DNA from: Actinomycetota bacterium
GTDB taxonomy: Bacteria; Actinomycetota; Acidimicrobiia; Acidimicrobiales; Ilumatobacteraceae
Length of the DNA stretch: 64,000 nucleotides
NCBI GenBank assembly: GCA_963169665.1
Contig: CAUJET010000039.1
Location: 54,655 to 118,654 of the forward strand
Direction of reading: 5' to 3'
This document shows, in pieces, positions 3,569 through 8,536 of this stretch. The position numbers and the translations under genes are program-made. The notes beneath the pieces are model-generated. The model was not told the DNA's origin and ran no database searches. It saw only the letters and a list, made by a program, of their open reading frames with translations. Position 1 is the first letter of the stretch. Each line of letters starts with the position of its first letter.

Positions 3569-4292
3569 CTGCCCCGGGCGCGTCGCCACCTGCGGCCGGT
3601 CCGTCGGTCGCATCGGGGTCGGCGGCGCGCATGCGATCGGCGAGGCGGCGCAGCACCTGTACGAACACGTCGCTCTCCTGCGCGCCCGGCACCATCCACC
3701 CCTGCCCCTCGGGACCGGCGAAGACGAAGGTGGGCACGGCGGTGATCTCCGCCTCGCGGGCGACCTGCAGCCACTGCTGCACCTCGGCCACGCCGTCGTC
3801 ACTGTCGAGGAACGCCCGCACCCGATCGCGGTCGAGGCCGACCTCCGCCGCGCAGTCGGCGAGTACGTCGGGGTCGCCGACGTCGAGGCCGTCCTCGAAG
3901 TAGGCGCGCAGTAGACGCTCCTTCAGCGCGGCCTGGTGGCCGGTCGTCTCGGTGAGCAGCAGCAGCCGGTGGGCGAGCAGGGTGTTGGCCCGCAGGGCCC
4001 GCTCCATGTGGAACTCGATGCCCTCACCGGCTGCGATTCCGGTCACATGCCCGATGATCTGCTCGGCGCGTTCGGGACCACCGAACTTCTTCGCATACGC
4101 GTCCTTGACGGGGGTCGCCTTCCCCGGTGACGCGGTCGGATCGAGCTGGTACGGCCGGTAGACCGCCCGCACCTCGATGTCGTCGCCTGCCTCGCGCAGC
4201 TCGGCGAGCGCGTTCTCGAAACGCCGCTTGCCGATGTAGCACCAGGGGCAGACGACATCGGACCAGATCTCGACCTCGAGCACGGTAGCCAT
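3561..4292 (-). CDS. DsbA family oxidoreductase (FrnE-like)
   Basis: SDVVCPWCYIGKRRF CxxC motif and cis-Pro AVPTFVF. Confidence 0.85.
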   Translation of the reverse strand: MATVLEVEIWSDVVCPWCYIGKRRFENALAELREAGDDIEVRAVYRPYQLDPTASPGKATPVKDAYAKKFGGPERAEQIIGHVTGIAAGEGIEFHMERALRANTLLAHRLLLLTETTGHQAALKERLLRAYFEDGLDVGDPDVLADCAAEVGLDRDRVRAFLDSDDGVAEVQQWLQVAREAEITAVPTFVFAGPEGQGWMVPGAQESDVFVQVLRRLADRMRAADPDATDGPAAGGDAPGADA

Positions 4293-4325: not shown

Positions 4326-6011
4326 GTGTCAGCAGCTGAGCGCGCTCGAGCGAACGCAGATGTCCAGGCCACGTTCTGCGCCACCCTGGTCGACCAGTGG
4401 ATGCGCGACGGCGTGACCCATGCGATGGTGTCGCCCGGGTCCCGCTCCACGCCGTTGGCGCTCGCGCTCGCCGCATGCGCCGACCTGCGCGTCGAGGTGT
4501 TCCACGACGAGCGATCGGCTGCGTTCGCCGCCCTCGGGGCGGGCCTCGCGAGCGGGCGGCCCGCGCTGCTGCTGTGCACCAGCGGCACCGCCGCCACGCA
4601 CTTCCACGGTGCGGTGGTCGAGGCGCACCTGAGCCAGGTGCCGATGCTGGTCCTCACGGCGGACAGGCCGCCGGAGTTGCGCGACGTCGGCGCTCCGCAG
4701 ACCATCGACCAGACCAAGCTCTACGGCGACGCCGTCCGTTGGTTCCACGATCCCGGAGTGCCCACCGTCGACGCCGCCGGCACGTGGCGTGCCCTCGCCC
4801 GGCACGCACTCGCCCGTACGTCGGGCTCGCATGCCGGCCCGGTCCACCTGAACCTGCCGTTCCGCGAGCCGCTCGTCGGTGAGGCCGGTGAGCTCCCCGA
4901 CGCGCACCTCGGTCGGTTGCTCGTCGATGCACCGTCGGTGCGTCTCGGCACGCTCGCGATGCAGCTCGATCGAGAGCGCGGCGTCATCGTCGCCGGCCGG
5001 GGCGTCGACGACCCGGCGGCCGTCGCCGCGCTGTCGGCCGCCACCGGCTGGCCGGTGCTCGCCGATCCGCGATCGGGATGCCGGGGCATCGTGGGCGCGG
5101 TGAGCGCGTTCGACTCGCTGCTGCGCCACGACGATTTCGCCGCGTCGCACCTACCCGAGGTGGTGGTGCACCTGGGTGAGCCGCCTGCGTCGAAGGTCTT
5201 GTCCACCTGGCTCGCGGCGTCCGGCGCGGTGCAGGTGCGCGTCACCGCCACCGACGTCTGGATCGACCCCGCTCATACCGTCGCCCACCGGGTCGTCGCC
5301 CCGATCGGTGAGTTCTGCCGTCGGCTCGCCGGTGAGCTGCGCGGTGCCGGTGGGAGCGATTGGGTGCAGCGCTGGACCCATGTGTCGGCCATCGCCGATC
5401 GTGAGCTGGGCCTGGCGCTCGACGGGGCGACCGAGCTCACCGAGCCGTTGGTGGCCCGCGCGGTCTCTCGCCTCGACGGCCATGTCGTCGTCGCGTCGTC
5501 GATGCCGGTACGCGACCTGGAATGGTTCGGCGCGCCCGATCAGCGAGCGACGGTCTGGTCGAACCGTGGGGCGAACGGCATCGACGGCACGGTCGCCACG
5601 GCGATCGGGATCGCCGCGGTCACCGGTCGGCCCGTGACGGTGCTCCTCGGCGACGTCTCGCTGTTGCACGACGCGTCCTCGCTCACGGCGCTCGCCCGTC
5701 GCGACGTCCAGGTGCGCATCGTCGTGGTCGACAACGACGGCGGTGGCATCTTCTCGTTCCTGCCGCAGGCGTCGGCGCTCGGCGTCGATCGGTTCGAGCA
5801 GCTCTTCGGCACGCCACACGGCGCCGACCTGGTCGGCATCGCGGCCGCACACGGGCTGCGGGCGTCCAGCGTGTGCGACCGCGACGAACTCGACGCCCGG
5901 TTGGCCGAACCCGGGTCGCAGCTCATCCGGGTGTCGAGCGAGCGGCAGGCGAACGTGCACGAACACGTCCGCCTGCACGCGCTCGTCACCTCGGCGATGC
6001 GGCCCGACTGA
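4326..6011 (+). CDS. menD: 2-succinyl-5-enolpyruvyl-6-hydroxy-3-cyclohexene-1-carboxylate synthase
   Basis: SPGSRSTPLALA, LLCTSGTAATHFHGAVVEA, NRGANGIDGTVATAIG, VDNDGGGIFSFLPQ. Confidence 0.93.
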   Translation: MSAAERARANADVQATFCATLVDQWMRDGVTHAMVSPGSRSTPLALALAACADLRVEVFHDERSAAFAALGAGLASGRPALLLCTSGTAATHFHGAVVEAHLSQVPMLVLTADRPPELRDVGAPQTIDQTKLYGDAVRWFHDPGVPTVDAAGTWRALARHALARTSGSHAGPVHLNLPFREPLVGEAGELPDAHLGRLLVDAPSVRLGTLAMQLDRERGVIVAGRGVDDPAAVAALSAATGWPVLADPRSGCRGIVGAVSAFDSLLRHDDFAASHLPEVVVHLGEPPASKVLSTWLAASGAVQVRVTATDVWIDPAHTVAHRVVAPIGEFCRRLAGELRGAGGSDWVQRWTHVSAIADRELGLALDGATELTEPLVARAVSRLDGHVVVASSMPVRDLEWFGAPDQRATVWSNRGANGIDGTVATAIGIAAVTGRPVTVLLGDVSLLHDASSLTALARRDVQVRIVVVDNDGGGIFSFLPQASALGVDRFEQLFGTPHGADLVGIAAAHGLRASSVCDRDELDARLAEPGSQLIRVSSERQANVHEHVRLHALVTSAMRPD

Positions 6012-6050: not shown

Positions 6051-6710
6051 TCAGCCGAAGACGTCGGTGAAGATCTGCTCGAACTCGGGCGTGGCCGGTC
6101 CGCTCAGACCGCAGCTGGTGACCACGCCGTCGACGGCGGTGACCAGGTAGCGGGTACCGACCACGAAGTCGACACCGTCGAGCGCGGCGGTGAAACCGGC
6201 GGGGACGGTGAGGTCGACGACGTCGGAGTCACCGCCGCGGAACCAGCGGTCGACCTCGAGCCGGATCGTCGAACCGCTCGCCTGGTCGCCGGTGATCTCG
6301 GTGACCGTGCCGCCGAACGCGACCTCCACACCGGCCAGTTGTGACGGCTCGAAGGCCATGCACATGCTCATGACCGGATCGATCGGCGCGAGACCGAGTT
6401 CGGTGGCTGTGACGGTGGGGGACGCGCCGTTCGACGCGATGAAGGCGATCGCTGCAGCGGCCACGACGCCGGCGCCACCGAGGGCGAACCACCGCCTGCG
6501 GCCGCGAGGGGCAGGGGAGACGTCGGACCGGGCGGGTGCGGCGTCGTCGATGAGCGGGGTGGACATGATCTCCTCCAGGAGGGTGCGTGCCCGATCACTC
6601 GTGATCGGGTCGATGGGGTGTGTCGTCGCGTCGGCGATCGGGTCGAGGGCGACGAGTACAGCGAGCAGCCGCCCGTCCGTCGATCGGGGGTCGTACTGGT
6701 CGTCGCTCAT
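6051..6710 (-). CDS. putative anti-sigma-like single-TM protein, overlaps the ECF sigma stop
   Basis: One TM segment (WFALGGAGVVAAAAIAFIA); ATGA-type overlap with the upstream sigma gene. Confidence 0.5.
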   Translation of the reverse strand: MSDDQYDPRSTDGRLLAVLVALDPIADATTHPIDPITSDRARTLLEEIMSTPLIDDAAPARSDVSPAPRGRRRWFALGGAGVVAAAAIAFIASNGASPTVTATELGLAPIDPVMSMCMAFEPSQLAGVEVAFGGTVTEITGDQASGSTIRLEVDRWFRGGDSDVVDLTVPAGFTAALDGVDFVVGTRYLVTAVDGVVTSCGLSGPATPEFEQIFTDVFG

Positions 6711-7459
6711 CGGTCCTCCTTCCGTCCGTCGATGCGTTCACCCGGGAGGTGTCCACCTGTCCGTCGGATCTGTCGTCGCAGCCAGCGGTCGAAGGTGTGA
6801 CCTCCGACCACGACGAAACCCGCGTCGCGGGAGGGTCCCAACCGTTCCGCGAGCCGCTGCTTCACGCGGTGCAACCGGATGCTGACCGCGTTGGCGCTGA
6901 GCCCCATCGCGACGGCGATATCGCGGGGCGGCAGCCCCTCCCACGCCCAGAGCAGCACGATCTCGCGGTCGGTGTCGGGCAGTTCGGCGAGCGCGGTGTG
7001 CAGCTCGGCCACCAGGTCGGTCTCGTCCGCTGCGCCTGGCGGGACGATGGGCTGTGCGGCGAGTCGATGGCCGACGTTGGCCTGGCGACGTTCGCCGCGC
7101 CGGTCGTTCGCGAGGCAGCGGCGGGCGACGCCGAGCGTCCAGGGGAGGCCTGCGTCCTCCGGAATGTCGTCGAGACGCCGCCAGCACACGAGCAGGGTGT
7201 CGCTCACGACGTCGTCGGCCGCGGCAGCGTCGATGCGCCGTCGTACGTACCGCTGGAGCGGTTCGTAGACCTCGGCGGCCATGGCCTCGAAGCGGGCGCG
7301 ACGCACCGCATCGGATGCGTCGGCTGGGGCGATGGACGTCGGGCGTGCTCCCACGACACCCCAGGTGTCCGGTTGCCCCCGTTTCCTGTCGCGCGCCACG
7401 GAGAAATCCTGCCCCGTTTGCGGCGGTCCTCCGACGATCGTGCTGGATCCGTCGTCCAC
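6707..7459 (-). CDS. ECF RNA polymerase sigma factor (true start probably downstream of 7459)
   Basis: Region 2/4 signatures: YEPLQRYVRRRI...DDVVSDTLLVCWRRL and LPDTDREIVLLWAWEGLPPRDIAVAMGLSANAVSIRLHRVKQRL. Confidence 0.8.
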   Translation of the reverse strand: MDDGSSTIVGGPPQTGQDFSVARDRKRGQPDTWGVVGARPTSIAPADASDAVRRARFEAMAAEVYEPLQRYVRRRIDAAAADDVVSDTLLVCWRRLDDIPEDAGLPWTLGVARRCLANDRRGERRQANVGHRLAAQPIVPPGAADETDLVAELHTALAELPDTDREIVLLWAWEGLPPRDIAVAMGLSANAVSIRLHRVKQRLAERLGPSRDAGFVVVGGHTFDRWLRRQIRRTGGHLPGERIDGRKEDR

Positions 7460-7471
7460 GACGGATGCAGC
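7442..7471. repeat. imperfect palindrome, 14-bp arms (1 mismatch), CC centre, related to 8465-8504
   Basis: GCTGGATCCGTCGT-CC-ACGACGGATGCAGC. Confidence 0.85.
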
Positions 7472-7475
7472 GAGA

Positions 7476-8405
7476 CCATCGCGCCTCGAGCCGCCGGTCG
7501 ATGAGTGTCACGAGCTCCTCGAGGACCTCGTCGAGCCGATCGAGGTCGGTCCACCACACCTCGACGATCTCCCAGCCCAGTGCCCTGAGCCGACGCCGTC
7601 GGCGCGCATCGTCCGCCTGCGCGGTCGGGGTGGCGTGCCAGCGCCAGCTCTGGCACTCCACGCCGACGAGCAGGTCGGGGATGGCGAGATCGAGTCGCGC
7701 CAGGGGGTGACGAGCGCCGTCGAACACCGGGTGTTCGTCGACCGGTTCGATGCCTCTCAGGGCGAATGCCGTGCGTGCCAGACGCTGGAACCAACTGCCG
7801 GGGAGCGGAGCGTCGACGCGCTCGCGCAGCAGCTGGAACACGATCGACGCCCCGGGCATCCGGCGCGAACGCCACTCGGTCGCGGCCGTTCGCACCCACT
7901 CGGTCGATCGTCCGGCCCTGAGCATGCTGTCGAAGGCCTTGCCGGCGGCGTCTGCCCCGTCCGAGGCTGCGATCTGCAGGAGTGCCACCGGCTGGATCAC
8001 GCACCGGAAGCCGTCGACCACCATGCCGTGGCGGTCCTCGAGCACCACGGAGCGGTGCACCGTCGTGCCCGCCGTCGAGCGGACGAAGTGACCGTCCGTC
8101 GACGAGATCGCGATGCGCACATCGGTGTCGTACCCGTCGAAGCCGTGGAGCCTGGCGGCCGTCGCATGGCTCGCGACCGCGTGCGGCCCTGCAGCGAGCA
8201 GTGCAGCTCGGACATCGCGTGCCCACGACGGCGAGGTGCCCGACAGCCCGAGCACCTGGCGGTGGATGCGTCGCCACTCCCTGGTGCGCAGGTGTTGGCG
8301 GATGAAGCCTTCGGTCACGCCGACGGCGCGGAGCTGGCCCACGGTCGCCAGGCCCTGCTGGTGGGCGAACAGTGACGTGGCACGAGCGATGGTCGGGATG
8401 TCCAT
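7476..8405 (-). CDS. AbiEi-type N-terminal domain + DUF559 (Vsr-like) endonuclease; 3' end ambiguous because the frame stays open to 6738
   Basis: N-terminal wHTH-like ARATSLFAHQQGLATVGQLRAVGV; C-terminal LARLDLAIPDLLVGVECQSWRWH...RRRRLRALGWEIVEVWW. Confidence 0.7.
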
Positions 8406-8464
8406 GCGAACACAGAGGTGCACCGACCGAGGGTGACCGGAAGTTCGCATCGCGATCTCGGACC

Positions 8465-8504
8465 TTCTCGCTGTATCCGTCGTCCACGACGGATACAGCG
8501 AGAA
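8465..8504. repeat. perfect 40-bp palindrome, 19-bp arms with CC centre
   Basis: TTCTCGCTGTATCCGTCGT-CC-ACGACGGATACAGCGAGAA. Confidence 0.95.
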
Positions 8505-8536
8505 CGTTGCGCCGACAGCCAGAGCTGCTCGCCGGG

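Follow-up and report, generated by a model that had tools for sequence, protein, structure and literature searches.

A nuclease gene between two palindromes

The window, by which we mean the whole 64-kb stretch of DNA analyzed here (64,000 nucleotides), carries a nuclease gene on its minus strand at 7482–8450, with an ATG start at either 8450 or 8405. The gene is enclosed by two copies of a palindromic repeat, to neither of which a strand is assigned. The upstream copy spans 8457–8520 and contains a perfect 40-bp palindrome at 8465–8504, TTCTCGCTGTATCCGTCGT-CC-ACGACGGATACAGCGAGAA, with 19-bp arms around a CC loop and an inner core at 8475–8494. The downstream copy (7429–7492) has diverged, leaving a 30-nt palindrome at 7442–7471 with its inner core at 7447–7466. 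Together they form direct repeats that are 80% alike over 64 nt, and the repeat unit is an imperfect palindrome of approximately 50 bp, with a consensus of about CGACNTTCTCGCTGNATCCGTCGT-NN-ACGACGGATNCAGCGAGAACGTCG. Both copies had been reported in a preliminary description, as had the lack of any further copy in the window, and these statements held when the sequence was re-read, with the core confined to two sites. Searching for the 20-nt core with up to three mismatches gave four strand matches in the window versus 0.02 expected from shuffling, and no palindrome in the window is stronger than the one with the 19-bp arms. These two results rule out a chance palindrome. A simple intrinsic terminator was also ruled out, since no T-run lies 3′ of the window palindrome and dispersal would be left unexplained.

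The protein comprises two parts, both encoded on the minus strand: an AbiEi-like winged-helix DNA-binding part (7866–8405, approximately residues 1–180 of the 308-aa form) and a Vsr/EDxHD-type nuclease part (7482–7793, approximately residues 205–308). Its N terminus matched AbiEi in PADLOC (E = 1.6e-10). The MTES_1575/DUF559 domain was matched in Pfam at E = 3.7e-9, just below the family cut-off, and was found at E ≤ 0.01 in 47 of 50 aligned relatives; AbiEi_4 was found in 38 of the 50. Across this 50-sequence alignment D239, E250, and H257 are invariant and D266 is near-invariant, with the helix glutamate replaced by Q in the clade of the window protein. An AlphaFold2 model of the protein reached a pLDDT of 93.8. 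In Foldseek, the N-terminal part of the model matched the AbiEi antitoxin 6y8q (E = 4.9e-6), and the C-terminal part matched Vsr and the I-Bth0305I catalytic domain (3r3p, TM 0.81 to the target); both placements agree with the sequence profiles. The confident model of the window protein thus joins a DNA-binding domain of the AbiEi type to a homing-endonuclease domain of the Vsr/EDxHD type, which agrees with the single AbiEi-N/DUF559 nuclease gene described earlier. Domain searches found no known transposase domain in the window protein.

In the sister species (G001), the downstream repeat carries the stop codon of the gene, a TGA within the palindrome arm (CGC-TGA-ATCC). This codon reads TGC in the window, and the substitution removed the natural stop, leaving the frame open to 6738. 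The open frame from 6738 to 7482 runs through the palindrome and over a sigma-factor gene. With all four catalytic residues (D, E, H, and D) in place, the window gene may remain functional.

The men locus and the age of the unit

The unit had been described as splitting menD and menF. It does lie between them, but an ECF sigma factor gene (6707 to about 7459) and a gene for a 219-aa protein (6051–6710) lie there too. The unit alone therefore does not split the pair, as these two further genes share the gap of approximately 2.5 kb, which has the same contents in the sister species. The 219-aa protein is presumably a membrane partner of the ECF sigma factor. Both genes accompany the unit between menD and menF only in the window’s genome (G000) and the sister species.

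The expectation of empty sites in relatives was borne out, with the gap free of the unit in G003 and G009–G013. In G003, G009, G010, G012, and G013, menF and menD are in facing orientation with no intervening gene, and likewise in G011, where the gap is about 90 bp. G015 carries a different insertion of two genes, which from reading their sequences we take to be permease-like and cyclic-nucleotide/acetyltransferase-like. On these gene orders the men gap is a permissive site, and most relatives lack the unit. A long palindrome of unrelated sequence, TCTGGGCGCGAT...ATCGCGCCCAGA, also occurs in the G011 gap (L072, about 1985–2065) and may point to a further palindrome family at this location. The same palindrome pair and nuclease are present in the sister species. 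With copies only 80% alike, a unit common to both species, and a lost stop codon, the window unit looks like an old insertion and may be decaying.

Copies of the window palindrome elsewhere

The core was present outside the window, as the preliminary description had anticipated if the unit were mobile. The window’s genome has about four further sites (C67, C68, C115, and a weaker one in C33), and the sister species has three (C8, C126, and a weaker one in C133). All these extra copies lie between predicted genes, several right after a stop codon. The window’s own palindrome was not found beside paralogous DUF559 genes. A search of other phyla with the exact core gave ten records, three of which belong to the sister MAG; the others are spread over unrelated taxa and were taken as chance matches.

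In a genome of another genus (G016, 4,830,181 bp), a related palindrome is present in some 40 or more copies, both singly and in arrays with a period of 60–71; it has an inner core ATCCGTCAT...ATGACGGAT and an outer arm GGTTTTGCCCC. The pattern GGTTTTGCCCC...ATCCGTCATNNATGACGGAT...GGGGCAAAACC was seen at L108 5690–7020 and at other loci among L147–L164. No partner nuclease for this family was found among the three DUF559 homologues of G016.

Flanking palindromes across the phylum

Of 150 actinobacterial genomes sampled, 35 encode AbiEi-DUF559 proteins. We collected 86 DUF559 genes from the window’s own genome, related genomes, and this phylum sample, and scored a pair of flanks as matched when the flank-to-flank local alignment score was at least 20. 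Matched flanking repeats were found at 45 of the 86 genes, a set that includes a few orthologous pairs so that its entries are not all independent, versus 1 of 63 neighboring genes (Fisher p = 6e-13) and 0 of 430 shuffles. The sole positive control is a gene that we recognize by sequence as an IS630-type transposase, so the flank test also detects a true transposon. Approximately half of the sampled DUF559 genes have no matched pair at this cut-off, and some genuine pairs escape it: in the window’s genome, the C62 and C16 units match clearly on inspection and had been passed over because of wrong gene bounds.

The matched segments are mostly 45–60 nt long, often with an outer and an inner stem, and fold as hairpins (mean z of −3.8, with 80% below −2). 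A single universal palindrome sequence was considered and rejected, as comparison of left with right flanks revealed gene-specific pairs. The palindrome differs from gene to gene, also between DUF559 genes of one genome. Except among near-orthologues, palindrome similarity did not correlate with protein similarity, since the palindromes diverge too rapidly. Two DUF559 units, C149 in the window’s genome (L010) and C84 in the sister species (L038), lie between tandem arrays with CCGAGTGCCA/CACCCGAG motifs instead of single palindromes. AbiEi-DUF559 genes are associated phylum-wide with gene-specific flanking palindromes, and the suggestion that relatives would carry DUF559 genes between palindrome copies is borne out, each gene with its own sequence.

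Empty sites and apparent joint change of gene and palindrome

The units lie in intergenic DNA, and relatives have empty sites for two of them, at the men locus and at C62. For the C62 unit of the window’s genome, a clean empty site is found in the congener G004, which there lacks both palindromes and the gene; the alignment breaks off at 4175 and resumes at 4897 in the filled site, the corresponding positions in the empty site being 4408 and 4449. A target-site duplication is not definable at this empty site, the flanks there having diverged. The C62 unit itself (L030 4175–4897) has lost its nuclease half, with only residues 31–182 aligning, and its palindrome pair is 91% identical.

At the gltB locus the neighboring genes of the window’s genome and the sister species are approximately 89% identical. 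The left and right palindromes match each other within each species and differ between the two, and the nuclease has 62% protein identity between them versus 87% for the men-locus orthologues. With both palindromes and nuclease diverged at gltB, palindrome and nuclease gene appear, in this comparison, to change together.

Dispersed genome-specific families

A composite query of 23 unit palindromes was run against 16 genomes, giving place counts that are lower bounds. Among the 16, each palindrome type was essentially restricted to its source genome or that of a sister. Copies numbered at least 28 in G022, at least 22 in G002 (plus at least 5 of a second type), at least 17 in G003, at least 9 in G158, at least 8 in G172, at least 4 in G014, and at least 4–5 for each of two types in the window’s genome. 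For some types there is the flanking pair only, with no dispersed copies listed.

The G022 set contains one nuclease gene with a copy on each side. All 23 copies that were read are intergenic, 13 of them between convergent genes, and most lie no more than 30 nt from a predicted stop codon, against the 3′ ends of genes. The copies share a sharp 48-nt core and their flanks are unrelated. Near-identical copies at unrelated intergenic sites would need a copying process. Two copy pairs in G022 flank ordinary genes. The flanks (L301–L320) are polar in composition, with 57% C on one side and 52% G on the other. Insertion into pre-existing terminator hairpins was considered and rejected, as flanks of 30 nt paired no better than permuted ones did (p = 0.95), and an extension of the stem was confined to the 10 nt nearest to it (p = 0.004).

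Proposed explanation and alternatives

We consider the window unit to be probably a member of a widespread class of REPtron-like one-gene elements, in which the nuclease spreads its own palindrome. The nuclease would bind its palindrome, probably as a dimer, and cut DNA there or close by, after which break repair would copy the palindrome, or the whole unit, to new sites. Copies would persist where they are harmless, just past gene ends, and may there double as terminators or mRNA ends. From these patterns we infer that the nuclease recognizes and mobilizes the palindromes. The broader proposal, that AbiEi-DUF559 nucleases are dedicated mobilizers of a large unrecognized class of REP-like repeats in Actinomycetota, with nuclease and palindrome changing together, we hold at slightly better than even chances. 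The arrangement works like a REPtron but failed the test for the defining RAYT enzyme, and for this reason the flanked nuclease suggests a type of small selfish DNA element that has so far gone undescribed. In the open-access literature searched, no paper was found that connects DUF559 with palindromic repeats.

The nuclease could be a passenger, with REP-like palindromes spreading by other means and a DUF559 gene landing on, or recombining between, their copies. REPs are known to be targeted by insertion sequences (PMC1525189). The large G016 family without a partner nuclease and the two G022 copy pairs around ordinary genes would also fit. We nevertheless regard this account as unlikely, as DUF559 genes of one genome differ in their palindromes, palindrome and gene go together, some units are paired yet have no other copies in their genome, and most carriers lack Y1. 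We know of no alternative mobilizer of these palindromes.

Two further accounts give the nuclease no part in movement of the repeats. The palindromes might end transcription or autoregulate the nuclease gene, and indeed most copies lie right after stop codons and fold strongly, and AbiEi proteins autoregulate their own operons (PMC7725324). This is quite improbable in our judgment: half of the genes share a gene-specific sequence between their two flanks, which independent terminators would not do, near-identical dispersed copies call for copying, and the window palindrome is without the T-run. An autoregulatory operator, put forward earlier as the conservative alternative, leaves the downstream copy and the dispersed copies unexplained. 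The other account, ordinary REPs moved by HUH transposases with incidental DUF559 adjacency, could draw on the Y1 transposases encoded in G016, G022, and G158. However, the tested repeat motifs were not found around the Y1 genes of these three genomes. A search for Y1_Tnp (PF01797), positive in E. coli and other controls, found none in the remaining 9 of 12 genomes (G000–G004, G014, G049, G113, and G172), the window’s own among them. The GTAG tag, too, is depleted, not enriched, occurring in 9 of 50 repeats versus 18.5 expected from shuffling. We thus give this account very little credence, and for genomes without Y1 it is largely refuted.

If a nuclease that spreads its own palindrome is the correct reading, AbiEi-DUF559 proteins, now filed under names uninformative on their role, gain a testable one: they would accompany, and probably spread, palindromic repeats specific to each genome. 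For Actinomycetota, this would answer what mobilizes REP-like repeats in the absence of a RAYT, a question raised for CGTC REPs (PMC3733652). It would also provide a second, independent route of REP dispersal, with a Vsr/EDxHD nuclease in place of an HUH transposase, adding a nuclease-based mechanism to an HUH-centered field. Finally, it would offer many natural enzyme–target pairs with long DNA targets.

Comparison with known systems

The N-terminal two-thirds of the window protein resembles AbiEi of AbiE type IV toxin–antitoxin systems in both sequence and fold, whereas its C-terminal part is a nuclease. No AbiEii nucleotidyltransferase toxin gene is adjacent in the window, where the neighbors are menF and the ECF sigma factor gene.

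REP sequences and REPtrons with RAYT (TnpA-REP) transposases, together with TIRtrons and TIRYT, are among the closest described arrangements (PMC3733652). Like REPtrons, the units described here have a single gene between paired palindromic repeats, many genome-specific copies that stand alone between genes, arrays in some genomes, and usually one partner gene to each repeat family. The enzyme differs, being HUH/Y1 in REPtrons and an AbiEi plus Vsr/EDxHD nuclease here, and the DUF559-unit repeats are longer than REPs, at 45–60 nt and usually with two stems. The likeness to a REP/RAYT-type unit noted in the preliminary description thus stands for architecture and dispersal but not for the enzyme, which is no RAYT, Y1 being absent from the window’s genome.

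CGTC-tagged REPs are REP-like palindromes reported to lack a dedicated transposase (PMC3733652). The window palindrome also holds CGTC, but inside the stem, whereas the tag is unpaired in those REPs; CGTC occurred in 33 of 50 repeats versus 27 expected, an enrichment that is not significant. Here, in contrast to CGTC REPs, a candidate partner enzyme exists.

The EDxHD homing endonucleases and Vsr share the catalytic fold and the D/E/H/D residues with the window protein. I-Bth0305I is a multidomain enzyme whose DNA target, on which it dimerizes, is nearly 60 bp long (PMC3943268), a length that by analogy would suit the palindrome of approximately 50 bp. Unlike enzymes of the I-Bth0305I type, the window nuclease is encoded in intergenic DNA and not in an intron or intein, and it combines an AbiEi-type DNA-binding domain with putatively self-dispersing flanking palindromes.
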